The notes under the pieces were generated by a model, which saw nothing but the letters and a program-made list of their open reading frames with translations, searched no databases and was not told where the DNA came from. A program made the position numbers and the translations under genes. DNA of 64,000 nt from Roseicyclus mahoneyensis (GTDB taxonomy: Bacteria > Pseudomonadota > Alphaproteobacteria > Rhodobacterales > Rhodobacteraceae), in contig NZ_QGGW01000004.1 in assembly GCF_003148775.1 (NCBI RefSeq), forward strand, positions 186,001 to 250,000, read 5' to 3'. The first letter of the stretch is position 1. Every line of letters begins with the position of its first letter. Positions 1,886-16,052 of this stretch are shown in pieces.

Positions 1886-1969
1886 GGGCGACGTGCTGCA
1901 AGGTGCGGCAGCGGACTGTAACTCCGCCGGGGAGACCCATGCCTGGTTCGATTCCAGGGTCGCCCACCA
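1886..1969 (+). tRNA. tRNA-Tyr (anticodon GTA)
   Basis: 84-nt type II tRNA read by eye. Acceptor arms GGGCGAC (1886-1892) and GTCGCCC (1959-1965) pair perfectly, followed by discriminator A and an encoded CCA (1967-1969). The anticodon stem-loop is GCGGA-CTGTAAC-TCCGC with anticodon GTA at 1918-1920. It has a long variable arm and a T arm CCTGG-TTCGATT-CCAGG. The 3' end is the integration site of the genomic island; insertion regenerated the complete tRNA here and left a partial copy at 15103-15129. Confidence 0.95.
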
Positions 1970-1970
1970 T
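1944..1970 (+). repeat. attL: island-flanking direct repeat in tRNA-Tyr 3' end
   Basis: 27-bp sequence identical to 15103-15129. It covers the T arm, acceptor strand and CCA of tRNA-Tyr plus one base. Positions 1939-1943 also match 15098-15102 except at 1943. Confidence 0.93.
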
Positions 1971-2031
1971 TCTCCTGAAGTCATTGAATTTCATAGAAAA
2001 TGGTGCTAATCTGCCACCATGACAACGCGTG

Positions 2032-2061
2032 TTTCGCTACTTTTGCGGCAGTTTTCGCTAC
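2032..2061 (+). repeat. Putative integrase arm-type sites, left end
   Basis: Two direct copies of TTTCGCTAC, at 2032-2040 and 2053-2061, start-to-start spacing 21 bp (two helical turns). They lie between the att core and the integrase ATG at 2063. The same 9-mer recurs as a pair with the same spacing and orientation inside the right end (14994-15023), which suggests binding sites of the integrase N-terminal domain. Confidence 0.7.
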
Positions 2062-2062
2062 A

Positions 2063-3715
2063 ATGACCGACACCAAGAAGGTTCGATACCTCAAGATTGA
2101 TCGCGGTAGGTACTTTTACCAGCGCAGAATTCCCCTTGGACTGAAGGAGTGCTTTCCCAATGAGGATGTCTGGAGACGCCCTTGCGGGAACGTCACCTAT
2201 CCTAAGGCTGTGCAGCTTGTGGTCACATGGGCGGAAGAACACGACAAACTGATAGCTAGACTAAAAAGCCCCGATGAAAGGGAAGCTTATCTTTTAGACC
2301 ACCGCAAAAGAGAACATGAATTACTTGATACCTTTGTCGCCGACAATGGTGCTGAAATCATACATTTCCTTCCTCCTGAAATTGAAGGATGCAGTATAAC
2401 CTACGGTCAAGAAACTGAACCAAATTGGCTATGGGCAAAGAGTCGCCTTAACGATCTTGATAAGCAGCGCCTTGGTGGATTACCGGAAAGCTGGGCAGAA
2501 GCACAATTTTTGGCAAGGTTATCCCGATGGAAAGCAGGTAAGTTACAACCAACACAGACAACTGTTCCCCCTTACCAAAGATACATTGAAATCCTAGAAA
2601 TGGCGCAATTCTGCGCGTTTCGCGAATTCGTGACATTTGAAAAAACACTTCCTAAGCCATTGAGCGATGCTGAATACGCTTACGAGCTTCAATCAATATT
2701 AGAAAAAGTATATGGAAAGAATTCGCCCAATCCGCCTAAAAAAATTGATGATCGGGAAGAGCACTTCTTTATTAAATCGAAGATCGAACGCAAGTTATCC
2801 GAGGTCGTAGCAAACCCAAATACAATTTCATCGGTATTAGAGAAATACATAGCCTTCAATCAAATAAAGAATTTAACAGCCAGAAAGTATCGCAGAGATG
2901 TTTCAAGACTTATAAAGATTTTTGGGGACATGCCGATCAATCAAATAACGCCAGCGCATTTAAAGGAACTTCGAGAAGAATTAGTTTTTGAGATAAAACC
3001 TGCATCTTTGCAGGCAGTCTTCACCCCAATTAAGGGGTTATTGCGCTACGCATTCAATGAGCAGCTGATAGAATTTAATCCTATGTCAGCAGTTGCCTTG
3101 CCAAAAGACAAGAGGCCCATTGAGGAAAGGAAGTGGAAGAAGTTTGATCCCAATGAGGTACAAAGGATCGATGAAGCATTAAGAATAATATGGGAAAATA
3201 ACGTTCAAGGCCTGAGCGAGAAGAGACGTAAAGCCTTCGTCATGGTAGTTCGAGTTCTTATGTTTTCTGGAATGAGGCCAATTGAAGTCCTTAGGCTTAA
3301 GCCCTCCGATGTTTCGGCGCGTCTTATACGGATTTCAGGAAGCAAAACGGAAAGTTCAACACGAGTTATTCCAGTGCATCCTGAAATTAAAGATTTTCCT
3401 GAATGGATACAATCAGGAGGGTTAGAGACTTACCGAAACATTGAAACCGACGCGGTTGGAGCAATCCGACATAACTTTACGAAGTTGATTAGAAAGACCT
3501 TAAATCCAGCGATTTCTGATGAACAGAAAGCGCTTTACAGCCTACGTTCGACATTTGTGAATGCGATGCGCCGTGCGGGCGCAGACATACAAATGCAAAG
3601 AGCAATTCTTGGGCATAAGGAGTCTGGTGCTATTCGCCACTATGATGATGGCCCGGAATTCGAAAAGAAGTACGAGGCAGTAAGTAGGACGGACCCTCGT
3701 ATCGAAAATGATTAA
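2063..3715 (+). CDS. int: Tyrosine recombinase / site-specific integrase
   Basis: About 550 residues from the ATG at 2063 (MTDTKKVRYLKIDRG). The frame is open from 2000, but the extra 21 codons lie over the arm-type repeats and look non-coding. The N-terminal region resembles the DUF6538-like start of large alphaproteobacterial integrases (RYFYQRRIPLGL). A SAM-like core-binding domain follows near nt 2830-3080. The catalytic domain shows box I SGMRPIEVLRL (Arg near nt 3274), a KTESSTRVIPVH Lys region, LRSTF (Arg, box II), LGHKE and the nucleophile in IRHYDDG (Tyr near nt 3642). The usual box II His is Tyr (YSLR). It sits directly beside its tRNA-Tyr target and should catalyse integration and excision of the island. 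Confidence 0.92.
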   Translation: MTDTKKVRYLKIDRGRYFYQRRIPLGLKECFPNEDVWRRPCGNVTYPKAVQLVVTWAEEHDKLIARLKSPDEREAYLLDHRKREHELLDTFVADNGAEIIHFLPPEIEGCSITYGQETEPNWLWAKSRLNDLDKQRLGGLPESWAEAQFLARLSRWKAGKLQPTQTTVPPYQRYIEILEMAQFCAFREFVTFEKTLPKPLSDAEYAYELQSILEKVYGKNSPNPPKKIDDREEHFFIKSKIERKLSEVVANPNTISSVLEKYIAFNQIKNLTARKYRRDVSRLIKIFGDMPINQITPAHLKELREELVFEIKPASLQAVFTPIKGLLRYAFNEQLIEFNPMSAVALPKDKRPIEERKWKKFDPNEVQRIDEALRIIWENNVQGLSEKRRKAFVMVVRVLMFSGMRPIEVLRLKPSDVSARLIRISGSKTESSTRVIPVHPEIKDFPEWIQSGGLETYRNIETDAVGAIRHNFTKLIRKTLNPAISDEQKALYSLRSTFVNAMRRAGADIQMQRAILGHKESGAIRHYDDGPEFEKKYEAVSRTDPRIEND

Positions 3716-3933
3716 TAGATAGGCGAAAAAATATCAGATTTTTGCATCAGCGTAAGATTTCGGCTTATAAATACATACGTCCGAGTGCTGCGGCAAATTT
3801 GGATCAAACCTATGCGTCAAGCATGGTACTGAACTATGGGTCAGCCAGAACTAGCGTAAATGATGCGGTGTTAAAATACCGTATTTAGCCTACTATTGTC
3901 TTTTAGGGTTATTATCTATTGAAAGGATTAAGA

Positions 3934-4713
3934 ATGAAAAACGAATTATCAAACAACGATACAATATCTACATCAAAGAACATGTTCAAGCATAAAGCCA
4001 AATCAAAAGACTTGTCGATTCAGGATCAGATTGTGGCGTGGACGACATCAAGATTATTTTCAAACCAAATGAAGATTACAGGTATTGAAAACAGATGTCT
4101 AATGGTTTCAATCAAAGTATCCAATATGGAAAGGTATGAAAACTTCAAGCTACAAGTTTACAGGAAGTTCTTATATGCCGTTCGCGATCTTAAGGTCGAT
4201 ATCAGAAGTGATCAAATTTCGATGCTAGTAGCTGGTGATGTTGAAGGAACTAGAAAGTTTAATGTTGATAGATCTACAATGATTAATCCATATGAACCCC
4301 ACTACCATGTAATTATTGTATTTTCTAGTTCGCTATGGGATAAACTACAGCGAAGATTTTATTATCTTATGCGTAGCTACGCTTATCACTTAGCTGATTT
4401 GAATGAAACGAAGTTTGAACGCGAAGATATAAATAAAAACCAGTATAGGCAGTATTTTTGGTGGACAATATATGATGATCAGTCACGGAAGAAGCTTAGC
4501 AAGTACGAATACAGATTTCCATTGGGTAAGTTGGTATCATATTCGATAAAGGCTGACTTGATATCTAATAAACTTCATCTAACAAAATGTCAGCCAAGCG
4601 TTTTTCCGCATGACCTTTTACTTGATGAAAAAGCTATAAAACGATCAGATTCAATCTTTGACACACTAGTAAAGCGTCAGCTTTGCGATCAAAATAAAGG
4701 AACATTCCTATGA
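3934..4713 (+). CDS. Possible HUH-type Rep/Gp2-like protein, AT-rich island gene
   Basis: 259 residues from the ATG at 3934, which has an SD-like GAAAGGA at 3921; a TTG at 3919 would add five residues. No certain family match. It shows an order of motifs like rolling-circle replication initiators: a hydrophobic strand RCLMVSIKVSN, then PHYHVIIVF (His-x-His between hydrophobic strands, like the HUH metal motif), then LVSYSIKAD (Tyr and Lys spaced YxxK). Inovirus Gp2/YfjJ-like proteins share PHYHV-type strands. Its stop overlaps the ATG of a ribbon-helix-helix gene (ATGA at 4710-4713), so the pair is translationally coupled, as Rep or relaxase genes often are with small DNA-binding accessory proteins. 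Rep or relaxase activity is inferred only. Confidence 0.5.
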   Translation: MKNELSNNDTISTSKNMFKHKAKSKDLSIQDQIVAWTTSRLFSNQMKITGIENRCLMVSIKVSNMERYENFKLQVYRKFLYAVRDLKVDIRSDQISMLVAGDVEGTRKFNVDRSTMINPYEPHYHVIIVFSSSLWDKLQRRFYYLMRSYAYHLADLNETKFEREDINKNQYRQYFWWTIYDDQSRKKLSKYEYRFPLGKLVSYSIKADLISNKLHLTKCQPSVFPHDLLLDEKAIKRSDSIFDTLVKRQLCDQNKGTFL

Positions 4714-4949: not shown

Positions 4950-5381
4950 ATGAATATAGATGATGCGTTATTTTCCAAGCATGATCCCTTGAAGCGCATT
5001 CAGATCGATTATTTCAAACAGATTTTACGAAGCCTTCTTGGACGGTATGACAAAGTTTATGACACGTCCAAGTGCAAGCCTGTTAATTGGCCAGAATTTT
5101 CTGCCTTCATCGATGCCGCATATGTTTGTGGGTTTGTATGTAGCGACTTTGAACAACAGGTCGATGATGGTGGTTCCATCGATGCTTTAGTTCAACAGCT
5201 TGAATTTCATCCCCAACTTGTTCAGACCCTTACAGGTCAACAGCTACGGCATGTCGTTCATCATATCATCAGATGTGAACGCTGGAACGATGGTGGATCC
5301 CAATTTGGCGGGGGTTGTGTGTGGGATATGCTGGAATCGGGTTTGGGTCATGCCCTAGCTGATGCGCTAGACCGCCTGTAA
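4950..5381 (+). CDS. DUF6508-like hypothetical protein, paralogue 1
   Basis: 143 residues. It shares a colinear core with the protein encoded at 5640-6101: KPVNWPEF against KPVAWPEW, YVCGFVC against YDLGFVC, LRHVVHHIIRCERWNDGG against MRQVIHYIVRSERHGDGG, and an ending MLESGLGHALADALDRL against FVENGLADAFAGRL. The (H)xIVRxER...ENGxxxxxLxRL ending matches my recollection of DUF6508, a family of unknown function. The ATG at 4950 follows an SD-like AAAGGGA. It converges on the 5367-5627 gene and overlaps it by 15 bp. Confidence 0.7.
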   Translation: MNIDDALFSKHDPLKRIQIDYFKQILRSLLGRYDKVYDTSKCKPVNWPEFSAFIDAAYVCGFVCSDFEQQVDDGGSIDALVQQLEFHPQLVQTLTGQQLRHVVHHIIRCERWNDGGSQFGGGCVWDMLESGLGHALADALDRL

Positions 5382-5639: not shown

Positions 5640-6101
5640 CTATGGGTTTCCGTTCAGACGTCCAGCGAAGGCGTCAGCAAGTCCATTTTCAACAAATTTG
5701 TAGAGGGTTCCTGCACCACGATCACCGCCACCGTCACCATGGCGTTCTGATCGCACAATGTAGTGGATGACCTGGCGCATTTGACGAAGTGACAGCGACC
5801 CCACACGTGTCTTGTCCTTGATCATCATAGTGATGAAGTCCCCTATAGGCGTTTCATCATCCATACGATCAGTTGCATCACGACAGACAAAGCCAAGATC
5901 ATATGACATGCGCATGAAGGATTGCCATTCAGGCCATGCAACAGGTTTGGTGTCATCTGTCACAAACCGATCATGTAGCTGTCCAAGCAGTTTTGCCATT
6001 TCGAGGATCTGGTCAACGGACAGCTTGTCGTTCAAACTGTTCGGGTGTGGAATTTTGTTGTCAGGTGTGGTCACATCGGGATCGTCCCAAATCTGTGTCA
6101 T
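5640..6101 (-). CDS. DUF6508-like hypothetical protein, paralogue 2
   Basis: 153 residues, paralogous to the 4950-5381 product over most of its length but in inverted orientation. It has a longer polar N-terminus (MTQIWDDPDVTTPDNKIPH), then SVDQILEMAKLLGQLHDRF, KPVAWPEWQSFM, MSYDLGFVC, and the conserved C-terminal VIHYIVRSERHGDGGG...VENGLADAFAGRL. Homology is clear but identity is low, so this is an old duplication or two separate acquisitions. Function unknown. Confidence 0.7.
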   Translation of the reverse strand: MTQIWDDPDVTTPDNKIPHPNSLNDKLSVDQILEMAKLLGQLHDRFVTDDTKPVAWPEWQSFMRMSYDLGFVCRDATDRMDDETPIGDFITMMIKDKTRVGSLSLRQMRQVIHYIVRSERHGDGGGDRGAGTLYKFVENGLADAFAGRLNGNP

Positions 6102-6222: not shown

Positions 6223-6765
6223 CTAAGCGGCTTTAAGTGCGCGGTAGACAGATACACGACTGATCTTCAACTGTTCAGCAATCTTGGTCGCGCCAAGACC
6301 TTGTTGCCGTAGATCACGGATCTTGTTTGCATCTATTGAAGGCGGACGACCCTTATAGACCCCACGAAGTTTCGCTTGAGCTACGCCTTCAGCAACGCGT
6401 TTGCGGATGATGGCACGTTCAAATTCGGCAAAGCTACCCATCAGGTGAAGTTGAAGCTTGGCAAAGGGATCATCTTGGGCGGCACTAAAGGTCAAGCGTT
6501 CAGACATAAAGCAAACAGTCACACCCTTATCAACCAAGGTCTGAACGATTGTTTGCAGATCCCGCAAATCCCGTGCGATCCGATCAATAGACCACACAAG
6601 AACTTCATCACCTTCACGGGCAAATTCGATCATCTGTTGAAGGGCTGGTCGATCTTTCGCAGTAGCGCCAGAAAGCTTTTCTTCAAATACCTTGTCAACG
6701 TCACCAAATTCTTGTCGATCAAGGTTTTGTTCAATAGTTGACACACGCCGATAGCCTATCTTCAT
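6223..6765 (-). CDS. Serine recombinase, resolvase/invertase family
   Basis: 180 residues, the normal length for a small serine resolvase or DNA invertase. The N-terminal catalytic domain starts KIGYRRVSTIEQNLDRQ (nucleophile Ser9) and contains VLVWSIDRIARDLRDLQ (arginines of the active site). The long E-helix follows (FAEFERAIIRKRVAEGVAQAK), then GRPPSIDANKIRDLRQQG and a C-terminal helix-turn-helix (GATKIAEQLKISRVSVYRAL). It could resolve multimers of the excised element, invert a segment, or regulate. A 35-bp palindromic site lies 48 bp upstream of its start. Confidence 0.92.
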   Translation of the reverse strand: MKIGYRRVSTIEQNLDRQEFGDVDKVFEEKLSGATAKDRPALQQMIEFAREGDEVLVWSIDRIARDLRDLQTIVQTLVDKGVTVCFMSERLTFSAAQDDPFAKLQLHLMGSFAEFERAIIRKRVAEGVAQAKLRGVYKGRPPSIDANKIRDLRQQGLGATKIAEQLKISRVSVYRALKAA

Positions 6766-7548: not shown

Positions 7549-8502
7549 TCAGAAGCGCAAGTCGGCAATGTTTTGGAGATACCAACGATAGGTCTCGGCT
7601 GCACCTTGGCGCAGCTCGATCTGGGCTTGCCAGCCGAGGCGCGTTAGGCGTGAGACGTCGAGCAGTTTGCGCGGCGTGCCATCCGGTTTGCTGGGGTCAA
7701 AGGAAATCCGTCCTTCAAAGCCTGTGACATCGGCGATGATCCGGGCGAGTTCGGCAATGGTCACATCCTCGCCCGTTCCGACGTTGATATGGCTCAACAT
7801 GAGATCGCTGTTCTGGCGGTAGGTCACCACATCCAGATCCATTACGAAAAGCGAGGCTTCCGCCATGTCATCCACATGCAGAAACTCGCGCATCGGCTTG
7901 CCCGATCCCCAGATCACCACCTCGTTGGCCCCTGTTTCGACAGCCTCGTGAAAGCGGCGCATCAGGGCAGGCAAGACATGGCTGTTCTGGGGGTGAAAAT
8001 TGTCACCGGGACCATAGAGGTTCGTCGGCATGACGGACCTGTAATCCGTGCCATACTGCCGGTTATAGCTTTCGCACAACTTGATACCGGCGATCTTGGC
8101 GATCGCGTAGGGTTCATTCGTCGGATCCAGCACGCCGGTCAGAAGAGCTTCTTCGCGCATAGGCTGCGGAACGGCACGCGGATAGATGCAGGATGATCCA
8201 AGAAACAGAAGCCGCATCACACCGGCCTCGAAGGCTTGGTGGATGACATTGGCCTCGATCATCAGGTTTTCATAAATGAAACTGGCCGGGTAGGTGTTAT
8301 TGGCGTGAATACCCCCGACCTTGGCCGCCGCCAGAACTACGGCATCCGGACGCTCTGCTTGCATGAAGTCGCGCACGGCTTGCTGATCGGTCAGGTCAAG
8401 CTCTGCATGGGTGCGGGTGATGACCGTCTGGCCACGCGCCTGCAACTGACGCATCACCGCGCCACCTACCATGCCGCGATGCCCTGCTACATAGGTTCTC
8501 AC
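7549..8502 (-). CDS. fcl: GDP-L-fucose synthase
   Basis: 317-residue extended SDR that converts GDP-4-keto-6-deoxy-D-mannose to GDP-L-fucose by epimerisation and NADPH reduction. It shows the N-terminal dinucleotide motif [23 protein letters not shown], the family signature LGSSCIYPR (Ser-Cys pair), catalytic [19 protein letters not shown] and [10 protein letters not shown]. Length is normal. It follows gmd by 11 bp on the same strand and completes the two-step GDP-mannose to GDP-fucose pathway. Its base composition is GC-richer than the adjacent island genes at 9.8-14.5 kb, so the pair may have a different origin. Confidence 0.96.
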
Positions 8503-8513
8503 ATGCCACCCCT

Positions 8514-9635
8514 TCAGCCTTCCAGCGATACCGGAAGATCAAGACCGTTCTCACGAAAAAGCCTATGCCGCCGCGCGGCTTTCAGATCTTCTGCAACCAT
8601 CTCCACACACATCTCATGTGCCGTGATTTCCGGCACCCAGCCAAGCTTTTCCTTGGCTTTCGTGGCGTCACCCAGAAGGGTCTCGACCTCGGCCGGGCGG
8701 AAATAGCGCGGAACGATCTTCATGATCACGTCACCGGGTTTCACCGCGGGCGCGCGGTATCCGGTCACGGCCGCAACGGTCGCGATCTCATCGACACCCG
8801 TGCCGGTGAATTCCAGCGTGATGCCCAATTCCCGGGCCGTCCACTGAATAAATTCCCGGACCGAATATTGCACACCCGTGGCGATGACGAAATCGTCCGC
8901 CGCGTCCTGCTGCAACATCATCCACTGCATCCGCACATAATCCTTTGCGTGACCCCAGTCGCGCAAGGCGTCGATGTTGCCCATGTAAAGGCAGGTCTCA
9001 AGACCCTGAGCGATGTTGCAAAGGCCGCGCGTGATCTTGCGAGTCACGAATGTCTCGCCGCGGCGGGGGCTCTCGTGGTTGAACAGGATGCCGTTGCACG
9101 CATAGATGCCATATGCCTCACGATAGTTCACCGTGATCCAATAGGCATACATCTTGGCGACGGCATAGGGGCTGCGCGGGTGGAAAGGCGTGGTCTCGCG
9201 CTGCGGGACTTCCTGCACTAGACCATAAAGCTCGGACGTCGAGGCCTGGTAGAAGCGCGTCTTGTTCTCAAGCTTCAGAAAACGGATCGCCTCAAGCAGG
9301 CGCAGCGTTCCCATGGCGTCCACATCCGCCGTATATTCGGGCGCTTCAAAGCTGACGGCCACATGGCTTTGCGCGCCGAGATTATACACCTCTTCGGGCT
9401 GCACTTCGGACAGGATCCGGGTCAGGTTGGAGCTGTCCGTCAGGTCGCCGTAATGCAGCCTCAGATTGGGGCTCGGGTTATGCGGATCCTCGTAGATATG
9501 GTCGATCCGCTGCGTGTTGAACAAAGACGCGCGGCGCTTGATCCCATGCACCTCATAGCCTTTTTCAAGGAGAAATTCGGCGAGGTAAGAGCCGTCCTGA
9601 CCCGTGATACCGGTAATTAGTGCGCGTTTTGTCAT
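8514..9635 (-). CDS. gmd: GDP-mannose 4,6-dehydratase
   Basis: 373 residues, normal length. SDR that forms GDP-4-keto-6-deoxy-mannose, the first step to GDP-L-fucose. Motifs: [19 protein letters not shown] (NADP binding), [24 protein letters not shown], catalytic [10 protein letters not shown], and the family hallmark [19 protein letters not shown]. Cytoplasmic. It precedes fcl and lies downstream of the glycosyltransferase block with a 185-bp AT-rich gap, so it may have its own promoter. The host phosphomannomutase at 35511 could supply mannose-1-phosphate for GDP-mannose. Confidence 0.97.
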
Positions 9636-9820: not shown

Positions 9821-10741
9821 TCATTTACCCGGCGCGCTTCTATTAATAAATTCTTGAAATACCTTATTGTTTACCCTTCTTGTAGCCCCAGCTGCAATAA
9901 TGCTATGCAACATTCGCTTTTCAATTTTTCGAGATCCAGAATAATTTGAAATCCACAGCATAGAGTCAATTTTAGATCTTTCCTTCATTGAAGGAATTTT
10001 CACCTCCCAATAGTGATAACGCGGATCATTCGCGGGAATAAGATTTTGAATGCCAGGCCTTGGATCAAAAATCCCAGCTACCGGCATGTGTATTGTTTCA
10101 GCTACAGACGACAACCATGTTCCAAGCCAAGCAAAAGAACTAATCGACAAACAAACGTGCTTTGCAGAGCGCAGCCTTCCAAAATCGACTATAGGTGAAG
10201 CTTGTGGCAAGAATTCTGCTTCTGAGAAATGCTCCTTAAGAATATCTATATAGGATTGACCATCTAGCTGACCAAAAAAAACTGGGTGTCGACCACTTTC
10301 GCGAATTACTTTTTCGTAGTAATCTAACGGCAAGGGGTAATAACCTCGATACCGGCCTGATGTTATATCTTCGGCCCTTACATTGACCAAAATTACATCG
10401 TCACCAAAGAATGATTCTTGTTTTTGCGGAGGGAAAATTTGATTATATAAACGTGGATCACCATAATATTCAACCCTCATGCCCCAACCGTTTATCAGCA
10501 CTCCATCTACAGCGCCTGAGCGAAGCAGATAACACACCTCGTCAAGATCAAATGTGTGTCCACTCAATAACAAAGGGTTTTTTAGCGCCGGCCCCCGTTC
10601 TTTAAAAATATTCCATTCTGGTATTGATATTCCAAATATTTCACTTTTGCAATCTAAGCGCTCTTGGATTTTTAATGCCAACATTAACTGAAACATTAAA
10701 TTACCCAAACGACCGCGTGGCTTTATAACAATAGGTATCAT
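9821..10741 (-). CDS. Glycosyltransferase family 11-like, probable fucosyltransferase
   Basis: 306 residues. It matches the GT11 (alpha-1,2-fucosyltransferase) layout: GRLGNLMFQL at 10-19 (like the GxGNQMFQ start), VNVRAEDI near 120-126 (like the HxRRGDY GDP-fucose-binding loop), YYPLPLDYYEKVI near 134-146, and SISSFAWLGTWLS near 199-211 (like SNSSFSWWGAWL). In this family the enzyme transfers L-fucose from GDP-fucose to a glycan acceptor. The neighbouring gmd-fcl pair provides the donor, which supports the call. Linkage and acceptor are unknown. It follows the upstream glycosyltransferase by 5 bp. The codon use is AT-rich. Confidence 0.8.
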   Translation of the reverse strand: MIPIVIKPRGRLGNLMFQLMLALKIQERLDCKSEIFGISIPEWNIFKERGPALKNPLLLSGHTFDLDEVCYLLRSGAVDGVLINGWGMRVEYYGDPRLYNQIFPPQKQESFFGDDVILVNVRAEDITSGRYRGYYPLPLDYYEKVIRESGRHPVFFGQLDGQSYIDILKEHFSEAEFLPQASPIVDFGRLRSAKHVCLSISSFAWLGTWLSSVAETIHMPVAGIFDPRPGIQNLIPANDPRYHYWEVKIPSMKERSKIDSMLWISNYSGSRKIEKRMLHSIIAAGATRRVNNKVFQEFINRSAPGK

Positions 10742-10746
10742 TTTTT

Positions 10747-11694
10747 CTAGCCATCCTTCCTGCGATCCATATACTCACCTACAGGGCAAATCAACCGACC
10801 TCCATATTCAGTAAATTCGAGTAATCCCGATGAATTTTTTTTAATGTCATCGATAGGATTAAAATTTCTAGATGATAAAATTTCAAAACGTTTCAGATAA
10901 CTTCTAGACTCCCCATCGCCGTGCCACAGATGAGCTAAGCACAAATCGCAACATCCAAATCTACTATTGATAATTTCATTACTTTGAGCCCAATAAATTA
11001 TGTGTTCCTTGTGTGCATTGGAAAAAGAGCGTTCTTCAAAAAGTTCATCTAGCAAACCATTTGCGGCGGAAAACATCACCAGGTCTCCTGCTCCAACAAT
11101 ATTTGCATCATATAGTTTAAATGAAAGCTTTCCTATATTTATGGCTGTAGCCAGTCCTGGATTCCCCAATAGGTTGGTACCTAACGCTTCGAGCGGCCTA
11201 TCATCCATGTCTCTTTTCGCAAAAAGTTGCTGCAACCCTAGCCTATTTACAAATGACAGAGAAGGAACTTGCATTTGTGATTCTATCCCTGAAATTTGAT
11301 TAATTGTCATCAAATTTATTTGACCAGTTTCAGGGAGATAACGCACTTCATTAAAGCATTGGACCAGATAATTATCATCTAGAGTCTCAGAGACCACTTC
11401 AGCCCACTTAGGCTCTAAGAAAACGATGTCCGCATCGAGGAGCGCAACTTTATCATATCCTAACGCCCGAGCTTTCATGATGCCAATATTCAATAATGCT
11501 TCTTTTTGCCAAAGAATGGAACCACTCGTTATCTGAATTAAGTGATCACACTCATCCTCCCGAATGTGAAAAATACCTTCTGGCGACCACTCAACCACAA
11601 TAAGAGGAATCTGAAGATGTTTCTGAAAAATCAGAAAATTATATTTTCTTATTGTTTGCTCAGGCGGCGCAAAAAAAGCAGTGATTGCGATCAT
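10747..11694 (-). CDS. GT-A fold glycosyltransferase-like protein
   Basis: 315 residues from the ATG at 11694 (MIAITAFFAPP), which has SD GGAAG; the open frame extends upstream to a TTG at 11730. The fold is suggested by an N-terminal strand ITAFF, then a region ending YDKVALLDADIVFLEPKW, with the DxD metal/nucleotide-sugar motif DAD and flanking hydrophobics. Later the sequence has LAHLWHGDGESRSYLKRFEIL, a His region often seen near the end of bacterial glycosyltransferases. Donor sugar unknown. Part of the minus-strand cargo operon, 52 bp after the ATP-grasp gene ORF limit. Confidence 0.75.
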   Translation of the reverse strand: MIAITAFFAPPEQTIRKYNFLIFQKHLQIPLIVVEWSPEGIFHIREDECDHLIQITSGSILWQKEALLNIGIMKARALGYDKVALLDADIVFLEPKWAEVVSETLDDNYLVQCFNEVRYLPETGQINLMTINQISGIESQMQVPSLSFVNRLGLQQLFAKRDMDDRPLEALGTNLLGNPGLATAINIGKLSFKLYDANIVGAGDLVMFSAANGLLDELFEERSFSNAHKEHIIYWAQSNEIINSRFGCCDLCLAHLWHGDGESRSYLKRFEILSSRNFNPIDDIKKNSSGLLEFTEYGGRLICPVGEYMDRRKDG

Positions 11695-11801
11695 GTTATC
11701 TTCCATTTTTTTCACAAAAAGTACCCCCAACTTTCACAACGTGGTGCCGCATCTCATTCAATCCAAACAAGCTTAGAAAATCACTCTCCCATAAGTTGTT
11801 A

Positions 11802-13673
11802 TCAGCTAGTATTCGCTTGGTATAACCGAAAGCCAACTTTCCTCCCCTCAGCAATAAGTTGGTCTGATAAATTACCTCCTACTATTGAGACTTTAATGTC
11901 TTTTTCAACGACATGGTCCGCTGTTTTTGATAGTATTTCCAGAATTTTCGCAATGTTAGTATTTACATCAGATGCTCTCGTCGCATAGAAAAGTATGCGA
12001 TCAACAAATTGCGCCGGCATTCCATGTCTTGCAAGTTCATCGTAGCTTGGGCAGGCCAAAATCCCATCGATCGACTGATCCCATTCTGCGTTCTGGACAA
12101 ATTTTAAGCCGGACTGCACGGGCTGAGCGATCCATTGCCCCGAACGGAACAAGCCTTCTCTATCCTGCTCCACCATCACACCCCACTCTGTTCGAAGGCT
12201 ATGCTTAAGAACTTCAAATGCACTTTGAACATCTGCTGTCCAATCGTCGGTAACAAACAAAGCCACACGAGCTCGCGTGCCGCCTTTTAACCGGGGCATA
12301 ATAATATCTCTGTACACATCAGGAACAAACTGAGGCGATATCTGAGGTTGCGCATTTACTTCCAAAATCTTAACATCTGTTTCTCGCCATGATCGTGAGA
12401 TGTCCTCAGCAATCAAGTCAACACCCGCTATGTCAAGCATTAGAGCCTCAGCGGCACGAATAGCCAGCTTTGCGTTGTCGGGATGTAGTAGTTCAGACAC
12501 GTCATAAGCGGTTCCTCCTGTGGACATATTTGCTCTACGTCGGAGAACGACTTCTAGTCCATCCACTAATACAGTATTCAATGTGTAGCCTGCTTGCTTT
12601 ATTAAGTGGCTAGCTTCGTCGTCAAGAAGAACTGGCTTGCCTTTTTTTAAACCTTTTCTAAAGTCAGTTAATTCGTCATCTAAAATTTCTTTAATAGTAC
12701 GAATTCCATCGCCAGTTATGCTGCCAGGTCTCCGCTCGATCGCCTTGATGATTTTACCGCTATCAACTGTAATTCGATAGTCTTTACCGGGTACAAACTG
12801 CTCAATTACCACCCGCTTTCCATGCCTTACAGCGCTCTCAAACGCTACTGCTAAATCCTTTTTGTGGGTGACTGGCGCTGTCACTCCACGACCCTGCTTG
12901 CCATCATCTGGCTTAATTGCAATTGGAAAACCAATTTTTTGAGCTTGCATTTGCGCTTGCGCTAAATCCGTAGCGATAGATTTGCGCGGCACCGGTAAAA
13001 AATGTCGCTCAAGCAATTGTCCAGTCCTAGCTTTTGAGGATGCATCAACGACACCAAGGCCAGACGTTGATTGCGTAATAGTGCTTTTAAAAATATGCGA
13101 GTGCCGCCCAGAGCCAACTCTAACGATATCTTGCCCGTCGAGTCTATAAGGGATACTAGAGGAATCTGCAAATTGGACAATTCTTGAATTATTAACAGAA
13201 ATCGAATTTCTGCTTCGCTCTCTTTCCGCAAGCTCTACGAACTCCCTTGTAGCCTTTTCAAAGTTCTGTAGATTTTTGGGAGAGCTCAAAAACATGCAGC
13301 ACTGCTTGATATACTTGAGGATTTTTAGCGTTCTAGAAACATTGAAGGTTTGAAGGCTGACAAAATAGTTGATGCCGTTGAAAACCTGGATTTTACTTAT
13401 CAAATAACCACGCTTGGGTGTCGGCTGTTGAAAATGTTGCTCAATCGTAAATATTGCTTCAAGCAGATCCGCTTCAGTTAGATCTCCTTCTAGAGCGCTG
13501 AAATTATGAAATATGTTGAATATTTTTTGCCCTACAACGGATCTAAATTTCTCTCGTTGTACCGTTTTTCGCGCAACATAAAGGCTCCCGGATATAGTCT
13601 GAGTGGATGCACCATACTGGAAACCAGCATGCACATTCCATTTATCACCAATATCAAGCAATTTTTTTGTCAT
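11802..13673 (-). CDS. Cyanophycin-synthetase-like ATP-grasp ligase lacking Mur-ligase P-loop
   Basis: 623 residues. Residues about 174-230 match the segment before the CphA ATP-grasp domain (SIPYRLDGQDIVRVGSGRH, then STITQSTSGLGVVDASSK). Residues about 214-465 form an ATP-grasp fold: FPIAIKPDDGKQGRGVT (ATP-binding Lys and glycine loop), VVIEQFVPGKDYRI, and metal-binding ILEVNAQPQ near 436-444. In true cyanophycin synthetases a Mur-ligase domain with a GTNGKT P-loop follows. Here 466-623 begins RARVALFVTDDWTADV, where that P-loop would lie, but lacks GKT. The N-terminal 170 residues match nothing I know. Activity is probably ATP-dependent carboxylate-amine ligation, substrate unknown. One base separates it from the TupA-like gene upstream, with no own SD, so translation is coupled. 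Confidence 0.78.
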   Translation of the reverse strand: MTKKLLDIGDKWNVHAGFQYGASTQTISGSLYVARKTVQREKFRSVVGQKIFNIFHNFSALEGDLTEADLLEAIFTIEQHFQQPTPKRGYLISKIQVFNGINYFVSLQTFNVSRTLKILKYIKQCCMFLSSPKNLQNFEKATREFVELAERERSRNSISVNNSRIVQFADSSSIPYRLDGQDIVRVGSGRHSHIFKSTITQSTSGLGVVDASSKARTGQLLERHFLPVPRKSIATDLAQAQMQAQKIGFPIAIKPDDGKQGRGVTAPVTHKKDLAVAFESAVRHGKRVVIEQFVPGKDYRITVDSGKIIKAIERRPGSITGDGIRTIKEILDDELTDFRKGLKKGKPVLLDDEASHLIKQAGYTLNTVLVDGLEVVLRRRANMSTGGTAYDVSELLHPDNAKLAIRAAEALMLDIAGVDLIAEDISRSWRETDVKILEVNAQPQISPQFVPDVYRDIIMPRLKGGTRARVALFVTDDWTADVQSAFEVLKHSLRTEWGVMVEQDREGLFRSGQWIAQPVQSGLKFVQNAEWDQSIDGILACPSYDELARHGMPAQFVDRILFYATRASDVNTNIAKILEILSKTADHVVEKDIKVSIVGGNLSDQLIAEGRKVGFRLYQANTS

Positions 13674-13674
13674 T

Positions 13675-14562
13675 TTAGAATTGATACCTGTAGTTCCACA
13701 ATTGCCCCAATTTCATATTCCACTCAGACGGAGTGAATTGGATGTCACCCGCACGCGGAGTAAGCGTCATTTCGCCAAAGAGTACTCTCTCTCTGGCCTG
13801 GTACAAGTCTACTCGAATAAAATCGATACCATGCGAAAGTGCTTCTGCAACTTCGATCATTTGGCCCAATCTGCTTGGTAGGGGGAGCAATGGCGCCTCA
13901 TAAATTTTCCGATATGTGAGATTTAGTTTTTCCCAGTTTCTCGTGAAGAAACTGTGAACAGTATGTGATCTGCTCCCTGTTTGAATGAGCTGCACTTTTC
14001 CATCAAAACAATAAAAAATATAATCAATAGGTCCATCTGGATGGCCATCATCGATGCCTTCCTCCACAAACAATTCACTTGCAATGTTATAATATTGATA
14101 CTCGCGACGAAACCAGTAATAACTGTTGTCAAGCCAATCATCGGTTTCTTTTTTTAAGCTGTTATAATTCTGATTCTCTCGTAGCGTTAAGTTCTTCCTG
14201 CAGCCTTCGTTACACTTTAGAATTCCTTGCTTTGGCATATCTACAAAGTAATTATATGTTAATCTGGGTGCTTGCCAAATTACTGAAGGGATAAATTCTT
14301 TGCCGACACGACTCCGAACATAATCTTTTACTGCGAGCTTATCTGCTAAAAGCGTTGCAGTGTCAGCGCCCTTTGTATGAAAATCGATCATCCTTTGGTG
14401 GATCTTAGCGCTAAAGCTTGGGTGATTTTCAATATCAAGATCTCGACTTTCAACTTTCCTGTAATTATCTCGAATAATTTCAGGCCCAAGCGTTATCTCA
14501 TGCGAAAGTTTGGTGTTGTCAGCCAGATATTCAGATTTAGAGAGCAATGATTTCAAGCGCAT
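13675..14562 (-). CDS. TupA-like ATP-grasp protein (teichuronopeptide biosynthesis type)
   Basis: 295 residues, typical of the ATPgrasp_TupA family. Colinear motifs: LADKLAVKDYVRSRVG (about 72-87), ILKCNEGCRKN (114-124; the glycine-loop equivalent), YQYYNIASELFVEEG, IDYIFYCFDGKVQLIQT, and the C-terminal RVDLYQARERVLFGEMTLTP, then GDIQFTPSEWNMKLGQLW. The founding member, TupA of an alkaliphilic Bacillus, is needed for teichuronopeptide, a wall polymer of polyglutamate and glucuronic acid. Here the family member is first in a cargo operon with a CphA-like ligase and two glycosyltransferases. I infer attachment of an amino acid or peptide to a surface glycan; the amino acid is unknown. Confidence 0.82.
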   Translation of the reverse strand: MRLKSLLSKSEYLADNTKLSHEITLGPEIIRDNYRKVESRDLDIENHPSFSAKIHQRMIDFHTKGADTATLLADKLAVKDYVRSRVGKEFIPSVIWQAPRLTYNYFVDMPKQGILKCNEGCRKNLTLRENQNYNSLKKETDDWLDNSYYWFRREYQYYNIASELFVEEGIDDGHPDGPIDYIFYCFDGKVQLIQTGSRSHTVHSFFTRNWEKLNLTYRKIYEAPLLPLPSRLGQMIEVAEALSHGIDFIRVDLYQARERVLFGEMTLTPRAGDIQFTPSEWNMKLGQLWNYRYQF

Positions 14563-15023: not shown

Positions 15024-15102
15024 AATTTAACATTATGTCGATCCGATGCCTTTCATAAGTAACTGATTATAATATATAATTCATACAAGTAGAAGCGATG
15101 CT

Positions 15103-15129
15103 TGGTTCGATTCCAGGGTCGCCCACCAT
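15103..15129 (+). repeat. attR: partial tRNA-Tyr 3' end
   Basis: 27-bp copy identical to 1944-1970, corresponding to most of the T arm, the acceptor strand and CCA. There is no rest of a tRNA upstream, so it is the right junction of the island and not a gene. GC-rich host DNA resumes immediately after. Confidence 0.93.
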
Positions 15130-15377
15130 CCCCCCTCAAAATCACACTATCCGTGTCGATTCGTGCGCCTTGTGTCGTCGGATCGGCCGCAGTCATGCGT
15201 TTCCTGCCCAACCTTGCGGCAATTTCGCCGCGGCACGGAAAAGGTGTTAACTTTGCGAGCGTTTTCGTGCCGGTCGCGGCCCTTGCCGGGCCGACCGCGC
15301 TTGTCCGACCACGATGCAGACACTAAGGTTGACGGGCTGACTTTGGGGCTGCTACCGGGTCGCGCCAGAGGATGCTG

Positions 15378-16052
15378 ATGACTATTGTTCCGGATGACAG
15401 GGATTTCGTTGCACCCTTGGTTGCACCGTCAAAAGCCGCCGCAGCGCAATCGGGCAATGGCGACCTAGTCTACATGGTCAGCAAACGTGCGTTTGACCTG
15501 GTGTTTGCGACCATCGTCTTGCTGCCCGCCACCCTTATCGTGGCAATTGCGCTGTTGGTTCTCAATCCGTTCATCAACAAGGGCCCGCTTATCCATGTGC
15601 AAAAACGCATGGGCCGCGATTGCAAACCGTTCCGCGCCTACAAGTTCCGCTCGATGTTCGTGCAACCGCGGGGCATGCGCGGCCCGGACGACCCGATCGA
15701 GGTGGAGCGCATCACCCTTCTGGGCAATCTTCTGCGGCGGTCGCGGTTCGACGAATTGCCCCAGATCTGGAATGTCTACCGGGGCGAGATGAGCCTGATT
15801 GGGCCACGCCCCGATTATTTTCGCCACGCCTGCCATTACGTGCGCGTGATCCCCGGCTACCGGGCGCGGCACAATGTGCGGCCGGGCATAAGCGGTCTGG
15901 CCCAGATCAAACATGGCTACGCCGCCGGGCTGAACGCAACGCGTCTCAAGACTTCAGCCGACTTGATCTATATCCGGCAAGCAAGTCTGCGGCTGGACCT
16001 GTGGATCTTTTGGCGCACCGTGGTCACCGTCTTCCGCATGCGCGGTGCCTGA
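15378..16052 (+). CDS. Polyprenyl-phosphate glycosyl-1-phosphate transferase (bacterial sugar transferase)
   Basis: 224 residues from the ATG at 15378, placed by SD AGAGGA; an ATG at 15372 is also in frame. It has one N-terminal hydrophobic hairpin (KRAFDLVFATIVLLPATLIVAIALLVL split around 38-64) and the family catalytic core: VQKRMGRDCKPFRAYKFRSM, then RRSRFDELPQIWNVYRGEMSLIGPRP, then RPGISGLAQI. Members (PglC, WcaJ/ExoY C-terminal type) transfer a sugar-1-phosphate to undecaprenyl phosphate at the inner membrane and start exopolysaccharide or O-antigen synthesis. It is host DNA just outside the island, so it could prime a glycan that island glycosyltransferases extend; this is speculative. 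Confidence 0.92.
   Translation: MTIVPDDRDFVAPLVAPSKAAAAQSGNGDLVYMVSKRAFDLVFATIVLLPATLIVAIALLVLNPFINKGPLIHVQKRMGRDCKPFRAYKFRSMFVQPRGMRGPDDPIEVERITLLGNLLRRSRFDELPQIWNVYRGEMSLIGPRPDYFRHACHYVRVIPGYRARHNVRPGISGLAQIKHGYAAGLNATRLKTSADLIYIRQASLRLDLWIFWRTVVTVFRMRGA

Follow-up and report, generated by a model that had tools for sequence, protein, structure and literature searches.

A mobile, recurring pair of TupA-like and CphA2-like ATP-grasp ligase genes in Roseicyclus mahoneyensis, with a predicted role in glycan decoration

We analysed a 64,000-nucleotide (nt) stretch of the Roseicyclus mahoneyensis genome (contig NZ_QGGW01000004.1, positions 186,001 to 250,000; hereafter the window), in which genes for two ATP-grasp ligases, one TupA-like and one resembling the cyanophycin synthetase CphA, adjoin genes for two putative glycosyltransferases (GTx, of an unnamed family, and a GT11-like protein) and the GDP-fucose genes gmd and fcl. 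This linkage is real, and it is better supported than before because it recurs in other genomes and is mobile. In our preferred reading, to which we assign a probability of about 0.42, the four genes at 9821-14562 together with gmd-fcl would constitute a mobile glycan-decoration cassette, the ligases of which act serially on one sugar branch. GDP-fucose would be supplied by gmd-fcl, GTx would add a sugar to a host-made acceptor and the GT11-like enzyme would add fucose. The TupA-like enzyme would activate the carboxylate of a uronic acid and couple an amine or amino acid, while the CphA2-like ligase would activate the free carboxylate of the coupled amino acid and attach either a further amino acid or a small amine. 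The predicted product is a sugar that bears a short branch, peptide or amide, and its most likely site is a glycan of the cell surface.

Relatives were collected with an alignment of the window ligase and four relatives without the Mur half, scanned against 84,980 species genomes. Of the 506 relatives, the best 80 form our locus set, and absence from it proves little; the TupA-like gene occurs in the loci of 2 and GTx in those of 4 of these 80. The co-occurrence of the two ligase families elsewhere, which an earlier note on this DNA had proposed as a check, was confirmed, as the linkage recurs in two Comamonadaceae. Ramlibacter sp. WS9 (locus L106) carries the TupA-like, CphA2-like, GTx and GT11-like genes in the same order, their products sharing 46, 34, 36 and 47% identity with those of the window over the aligned parts; given the chosen starts, successive genes overlap by a few bases. 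In Caenimonas koreensis (L104) the TupA-like, CphA2-like and GTx genes follow one another in the same order and the TupA-like protein is 40% identical to that of the window. These cassette relatives belong to bacteria of a class different from that of the host, which has near the island a bet locus most similar to plasmids of Alphaproteobacteria. That the genes are merely chance neighbours was ruled out, as the gene order recurs over four genes in the former species and three in the latter. Partial and expanded versions were found as well. Caenimonas sp. SL110 has the CphA2-like gene with GTx (L105) and, at a separate locus, the TupA-like gene with GTx by a phage integrase (L208), and an uncultured proteobacterium (L117) has GTx and the CphA2-like gene only. 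Ramlibacter sp. WS9 holds, in addition, a five-gene version with four tandem GTx genes upstream of a CphA2-like gene (L206, 8269-12352) and a GTx gene without the other cassette genes (L207). In three genomes (G782, G783 and G784) the sole match to PF14305, the TupA family, adjoins GTx or sits in its cassette. The gene set appears rare: GTx was found in 1 of 398 genomes of a phylum sample (the window's own alone) and in 1 of 299 genomes of a sample of the WS9 family (WS9 itself alone). Single-protein scans of genome and viral contig sets, with query patterns taken from poorly conserved stretches, returned no relative, and the alignment scan of viral contigs gave one weak match only.

A 13.2-kb island at a tRNA-Tyr gene carries the cassette genes as cargo. 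An integrase lies by the tRNA, direct repeats flank the island and the site is uninterrupted in relatives; the guanine-plus-cytosine (GC) fraction is 0.448 between the repeats vs 0.662 in the remainder of the window. The 12 congeneric genomes searched, some of them incomplete, all lacked a match to the CphA-like protein. A host sugar transferase gene just beyond the island (15372-16052, PF02397) is present in 7 of these 12 genomes, and at all seven loci tRNA-Tyr stands beside it, at a distance of 237-307 nt vs 13.4 kb in the window. Because the congeners have no ligase match and, at these seven loci, keep tRNA-Tyr next to the flanking gene, we regard the cassette as island cargo, either gained by this species or lost from its congeners. 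The cargo looks mosaic, since the GC fraction of gmd and fcl is 0.58 vs 0.39-0.44 in the four cassette genes. The island also holds two facing genes (4950-5381 and 5640-6101) with weak similarity to DUF6508, under cut-off, and, after the integrase, a gene for a 264-residue protein without a Pfam family (3919-4713).

The earlier note described two different ATP-grasp genes, TupA-like and CphA-like, 1 base pair (bp) apart, and the open reading frames (ORFs) are as claimed (Table 1). From the TupA-like gene to fcl, the intergenic gaps calculated from the coordinates are 1, 71, 5, 185 and 11 bp in reading order. The TupA-like match spans positions 3-239 of the 241 of the PF14305 profile, over the curated cut-off. 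Both genes described as glycosyltransferase genes are present next in the order, but the GT11 match lies under the PF01531 cut-off and GTx has no Pfam family. GTx had no NCBIfam match either and one weak match in PHROGs (E=0.05), and the GT11-like relative in L106 is without any Pfam match. No credible PDB relative was returned by sequence search for the TupA-, GTx- and GT11-like profiles. A GDP-L-fucose pathway is indicated by gmd and fcl, each over its NCBIfam cut-off; these genes do follow, as stated earlier, but 185 bp further on and at a different GC content. A second gmd-fcl pair, 82% (gmd) and 74% (fcl) identical, lies on contig C7 of the same genome. The genome also encodes a second, divergent PF14305 match (contig C8, L069, about 10445-11548) and, on contig C21 (L068, 4426-7758), a 1111-residue protein with an AMP-binding adenylation domain and a CphA-like ATP-grasp domain. 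The latter gene is adjoined by SapC, FemAB-like and leishmanolysin-like genes, and a comparable fusion occurs in L071.

Table 1. Cassette genes and features of the surrounding island, with positions in the window
Feature	Position	Strand	Details
TupA-like ATP-grasp amidoligase	13675-14562	-	295 aa; PF14305 1.2e-31, 110.5 bits vs cut-off 25
CphA2-like ATP-grasp ligase	11802-13673	-	623 aa; putative Mur-like C-terminal domain without P-loop
GTx, putative GT-A-type glycosyltransferase, unnamed family	10747-11730	-	start uncertain: TTG, ATGs further in
GT11-like putative fucosyltransferase	9821-10741	-	PF01531 E=0.013, 15.2 bits vs cut-off 23.9
gmd, GDP-mannose 4,6-dehydratase	8514-9635	-	TIGR01472 572.3 bits vs cut-off 415
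fcl, GDP-L-fucose synthase	7549-8502	-	NF047922 527.7 bits vs cut-off 500
tRNA-Tyr, integration target	1886-1969	+	ARAGORN
Left direct repeat, putative attachment (att) site, tRNA-Tyr 3' end	1939-1975	+	37 nt, 92% identical to 15098-15134
Tyrosine integrase	2000-3715	+	PF00589 3e-8
Serine resolvase	6223-6765	-	PF00239 9e-36
Right direct repeat, putative att site, island end	15098-15134	+	GC climbs again past about 15 kb

By Pfam, the CphA-like protein of the window is a RimK-type ATP-grasp enzyme. Its supposed resemblance to cyanophycin synthetase holds for the best NCBIfam matches, which are cyanophycin synthetase models aligning to residues about 111-445, but the scores fall far under the cut-offs (270.6 vs 877 and 264.2 vs 850 bits), the Mur-ligase P-loop is missing and residues of cyanophycin synthetase 1 (CphA1) are lost. 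We gathered 140 G-domain proteins, 25 without and 115 with a Mur motif behind the G domain, and built a tree of 44 rows from 22 of the former and 22 of the latter (CphA1-like); one duplicate, L070 and L071_7258 were left out beforehand. All 22 CphA1-like rows fell on one side of a branch supported at 91/87. Twenty of the 22 rows without the motif grouped at 99/100, with L071_10785 and L183_6854 outside on long branches. The window ligase joined the cassette proteins of L104, L105 and L106 at 97/90, on a long branch (1.85) that casts some doubt on its placement. When six proteins without the Mur motif were combined in a profile, its alignment to CphA1 chains extended beyond the G domain into the M domain, and for this reason the C-terminal part of the ligase reads as a decayed Mur-like domain.

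Ten G-domain positions of TeCphA1 and their roles were taken from PMC9427784 (here and below, statements on published work refer to the available parts of the sources) and compared, in TeCphA1 numbering, between 10 rows without the Mur P-loop and 3 CphA1-like rows. K261, R309, N394, D431 and E450 are kept in all ten rows without the P-loop and R323 in nine, the equivalents of K261, R309, R323, N394, D431 and E450 in the window ligase being K254, R300, R314, N382, D419 and E438. E215, H267, R458 and the N-domain motif HxxEH are lost in 10 of 10, and G456 is replaced by Q in nine rows and F in one; at E215, H267, G456 and R458 the window ligase has V209, Q260, Q444 and S446, and HxxEH is absent. 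All compared residues, HxxEH included, are present in the three CphA1-like rows, and so is the Mur-ligase P-loop GTNGKT, which is missing in the window ligase and, partly by selection, in all ten rows. The N-domain peptidase of CphA1 is described in PMC9262961, according to which the full motif is missing in part of the true CphA1 proteins as well, and GshF has Tyr or Phe in place of the His at H267 (PMC9427784). Because the ligase retains the residues for ATP and metal but has lost the P-loop and four substrate- or intermediate-related residues, we infer that it is of the ATP-grasp type, has no more than one active site and acts on a substrate that differs from the one used by CphA1. An Asp-Arg product, suggested earlier by analogy with CphA, cannot be deduced from a protein in which several CphA1 features are missing.

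CphA2 lacks the P-loop and lid of the M domain (PMC9427784). The window ligase likewise combines a G domain with a Mur-like domain free of P-loop and lid, and judged from its sequence the architecture is CphA2-like, not that of CphA1. It shares with CphA1 the ATP and metal residues of the G domain and differs in having neither the second active site nor the primer-making motif, nor E215, H267, G456 and R458. In contrast to the known CphA2 proteins (PDB 7ta5, 8fxh, 8fxi), its gene stands in a glycosyltransferase operon of a non-cyanobacterial host and it scores higher against CphA1 than CphA2 chains; in the sequence ranking five CphA1 came first and the CphA2 chains 7ta5 and 8fxh were the next two, and the tree was built without a named CphA2. 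The AlphaFold models were weak, with pLDDT (predicted local distance difference test) values of 44.3 and 55.7. In a re-examination of Foldseek's own matches, most of the ligase model, which is of low to middling confidence, could be aligned to CphA1 and CphA2 structures, though with a high root-mean-square deviation; in the ligase's top Foldseek row, carbamoyl phosphate synthetase was matched over 75 residues.

In favour of the glycan-decoration reading, sugar-related genes were also found near other relatives. Ligases of the group have a Glycos_transf_1 gene no more than three ORFs away in a Sphingomonadales bin (L108) and a Cyanobium bin (L183), a Glycos_transf_2 gene at similar range in Allochromatium palmeri (L107) and an adjacent GT28-like gene in L157. 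A GT11-like relative with 28.5% identity, annotated as hypothetical, is encoded in a polysaccharide export cluster of an Enterobacter plasmid that also includes a nucleotide sugar dehydrogenase, and another, likewise annotated, is near annotated glycosyltransferases on a Gluconobacter plasmid. Two plasmid-borne GTx relatives share 25-26% identity, and the neighbours of the one opened are mostly hypothetical. In L108 (11525-14565) and L183 (11361-14404) the CphA2-like gene is followed by a gene that looks by eye like a phosphodiesterase, without a Pfam match, and then by the Glycos_transf_1 gene. At the L118 locus (9898-11499) a phosphodiesterase identified by Pfam follows the CphA2-like gene at a distance of about 1 kb.

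Several observations weigh against the glycan-decoration reading. Its chemistry is hypothetical, with product, acceptor and location all predicted, and both glycosyltransferase labels are weak. H267 and G456, assumed to stabilise reaction intermediates in CphA1 (PMC9427784), are replaced in all ten rows compared, and the catalytic activity of the ligase is thus only putative. The pair of ligases is not obligatory, since the SL110 ligases are at different loci and no PF14305 match was found in the genome of L117 (G785), which is a possibly incomplete metagenome bin. Nor is there a general association of the two families in a family sample of 394 genomes: 56 have CphA-like proteins of any kind, among them CphA1, 42 have PF14305 and 10 have both, with about 6 expected if independent, and by coordinates the two are close together only in the window genome. 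Among the cassette-bearing genomes gmd exceeds the cut-off of 415 bits only in the window's own (G000) and in G785; as it stays just under (403-406 bits) in G782, G783 and G784, fucose need not be general to the cassettes. NDP-sugar (nucleoside diphosphate sugar) dehydrogenase is over its cut-off in all five cassette-bearing genomes and in 13 of 14 control genomes too, and is thus common. No glycan genes were recognised by eye near four members of the ligase clade (L064-L067). In L157 the gene after the ligase relative encodes a chorismate-binding enzyme, which points to small-molecule chemistry. Moreover, we recognised no gene for a polymerase, a flippase or export next to the cassettes of Caenimonas, Ramlibacter and the island, where translations were inspected by eye and neighbours were not domain-searched singly; the surface polymer envisaged in the earlier note is accordingly not shown.

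The last two observations also favour a rival, in which the product is soluble, a glycosylated di- or tripeptide-like metabolite of the osmolyte, siderophore or antibiotic type, and no surface glycan is made. N-acetylglutaminylglutamine synthetase, the ligase's next NCBIfam match after cyanophycin synthetase, and a class-V aminotransferase gene 32 bp downstream of the cassette in L104 fit such a product. The polysaccharide cluster around the GT11-like relative argues the other way, no transporter was recognised beside the cassette genes, and the published TupA-type activity targets a capsule sugar: the TupA-like C-terminal domain of Cj1438 amidates glucuronic acid of the Campylobacter jejuni capsule with (S)-serinol-phosphate or ethanolamine-phosphate (PMC11800379). 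We consider this alternative rather doubtful. A second one, ordinary amidation, in which the TupA-like enzyme acts on a uronic acid and the CphA2-like enzyme on another carboxylate of a different sugar or acceptor, each adding a single amine and no peptide, appears less probable still. It agrees with the published decorations, which consist of a single amino acid or amine (PMC11800379, PMC5983295, PMC3210612), and with ligases that can act apart, as the separate loci of SL110, each with its own GTx, and the L117 locus indicate; the adjacency of the ligase genes in three genomes (window, L104 and L106) suggests one pathway. A cyanophycin-type storage gene beside sugar genes by chance was rejected as very improbable: cyanophycin synthetase is the best profile match, but HxxEH, E215, H267, G456, R458 and the Mur P-loop are lost as described above, no cyanophycinase was found among the island proteins scanned, although it is present at both annotated cyanophycin loci opened, and the gene order recurs with other partners.

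Parts of the proposed glycan decoration are already known. Teichuronopeptide, a polymer of polyglutamate and polyglucuronate, involves tupA in Bacillus halodurans (PMC8153356), and amide-linked alanine occurs in Gram-negative glycans (PMC5983295, PMC3210612). ATP-grasp ligases that are linked and act in succession are a stated theme, for which teichuronopeptides and O-antigen are named (PMC4431377). Like Cj1438 and TupA, the window amidoligase belongs to PF14305 and is encoded next to glycosyltransferase-like genes; it differs in its pairing with a CphA2-like ligase and in having no PDB relative by sequence. The exopolysaccharide of Vibrio alginolyticus and the Microbulbifer capsule bear amide-linked amino acids on sugar, as predicted for the cassette product, but the available accounts describe single amino acids and name no ligase pair. 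The claim that a Gram-negative polymer of sugar and peptide is undescribed was therefore too broad, since amino-acid-decorated Gram-negative glycans and TupA-like amidation of a capsule uronic acid are published. The pair itself was not met among the open-access literature entries listed and may be in print elsewhere. New here are the mobility of the island, the recurrence of the pair and the reassignment of the ligase as CphA2-like. A bolder version of serial ligation, which we hold to be improbable, is a new glycopeptide class. Starting from a uronic acid to which the TupA-like enzyme has coupled a priming amino acid, a CphA2-like ligase that has shed its Mur half and its cyanophycin specificity would extend it repeatedly to a peptide or isopeptide chain; a fucosylated glycan would bear this chain, and the genes would spread through both integrative islands and horizontal transfer.

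The cassette is a small, rare gene set found across distant hosts and carries a clear biochemical prediction, two ligases acting with up to two glycosyltransferases. Furthermore, it draws attention to a group of CphA2-like ligases that several lost features set apart from cyanophycin synthetase 1 and of which some members lie near glycosyltransferase genes. If the proposed reading is true, bacteria would have in amino acid ligation a modular and transferable means of altering a glycan or of producing sugar-peptide metabolites, and the labelling of such genes as cyanophycin synthetase would have to be revised.

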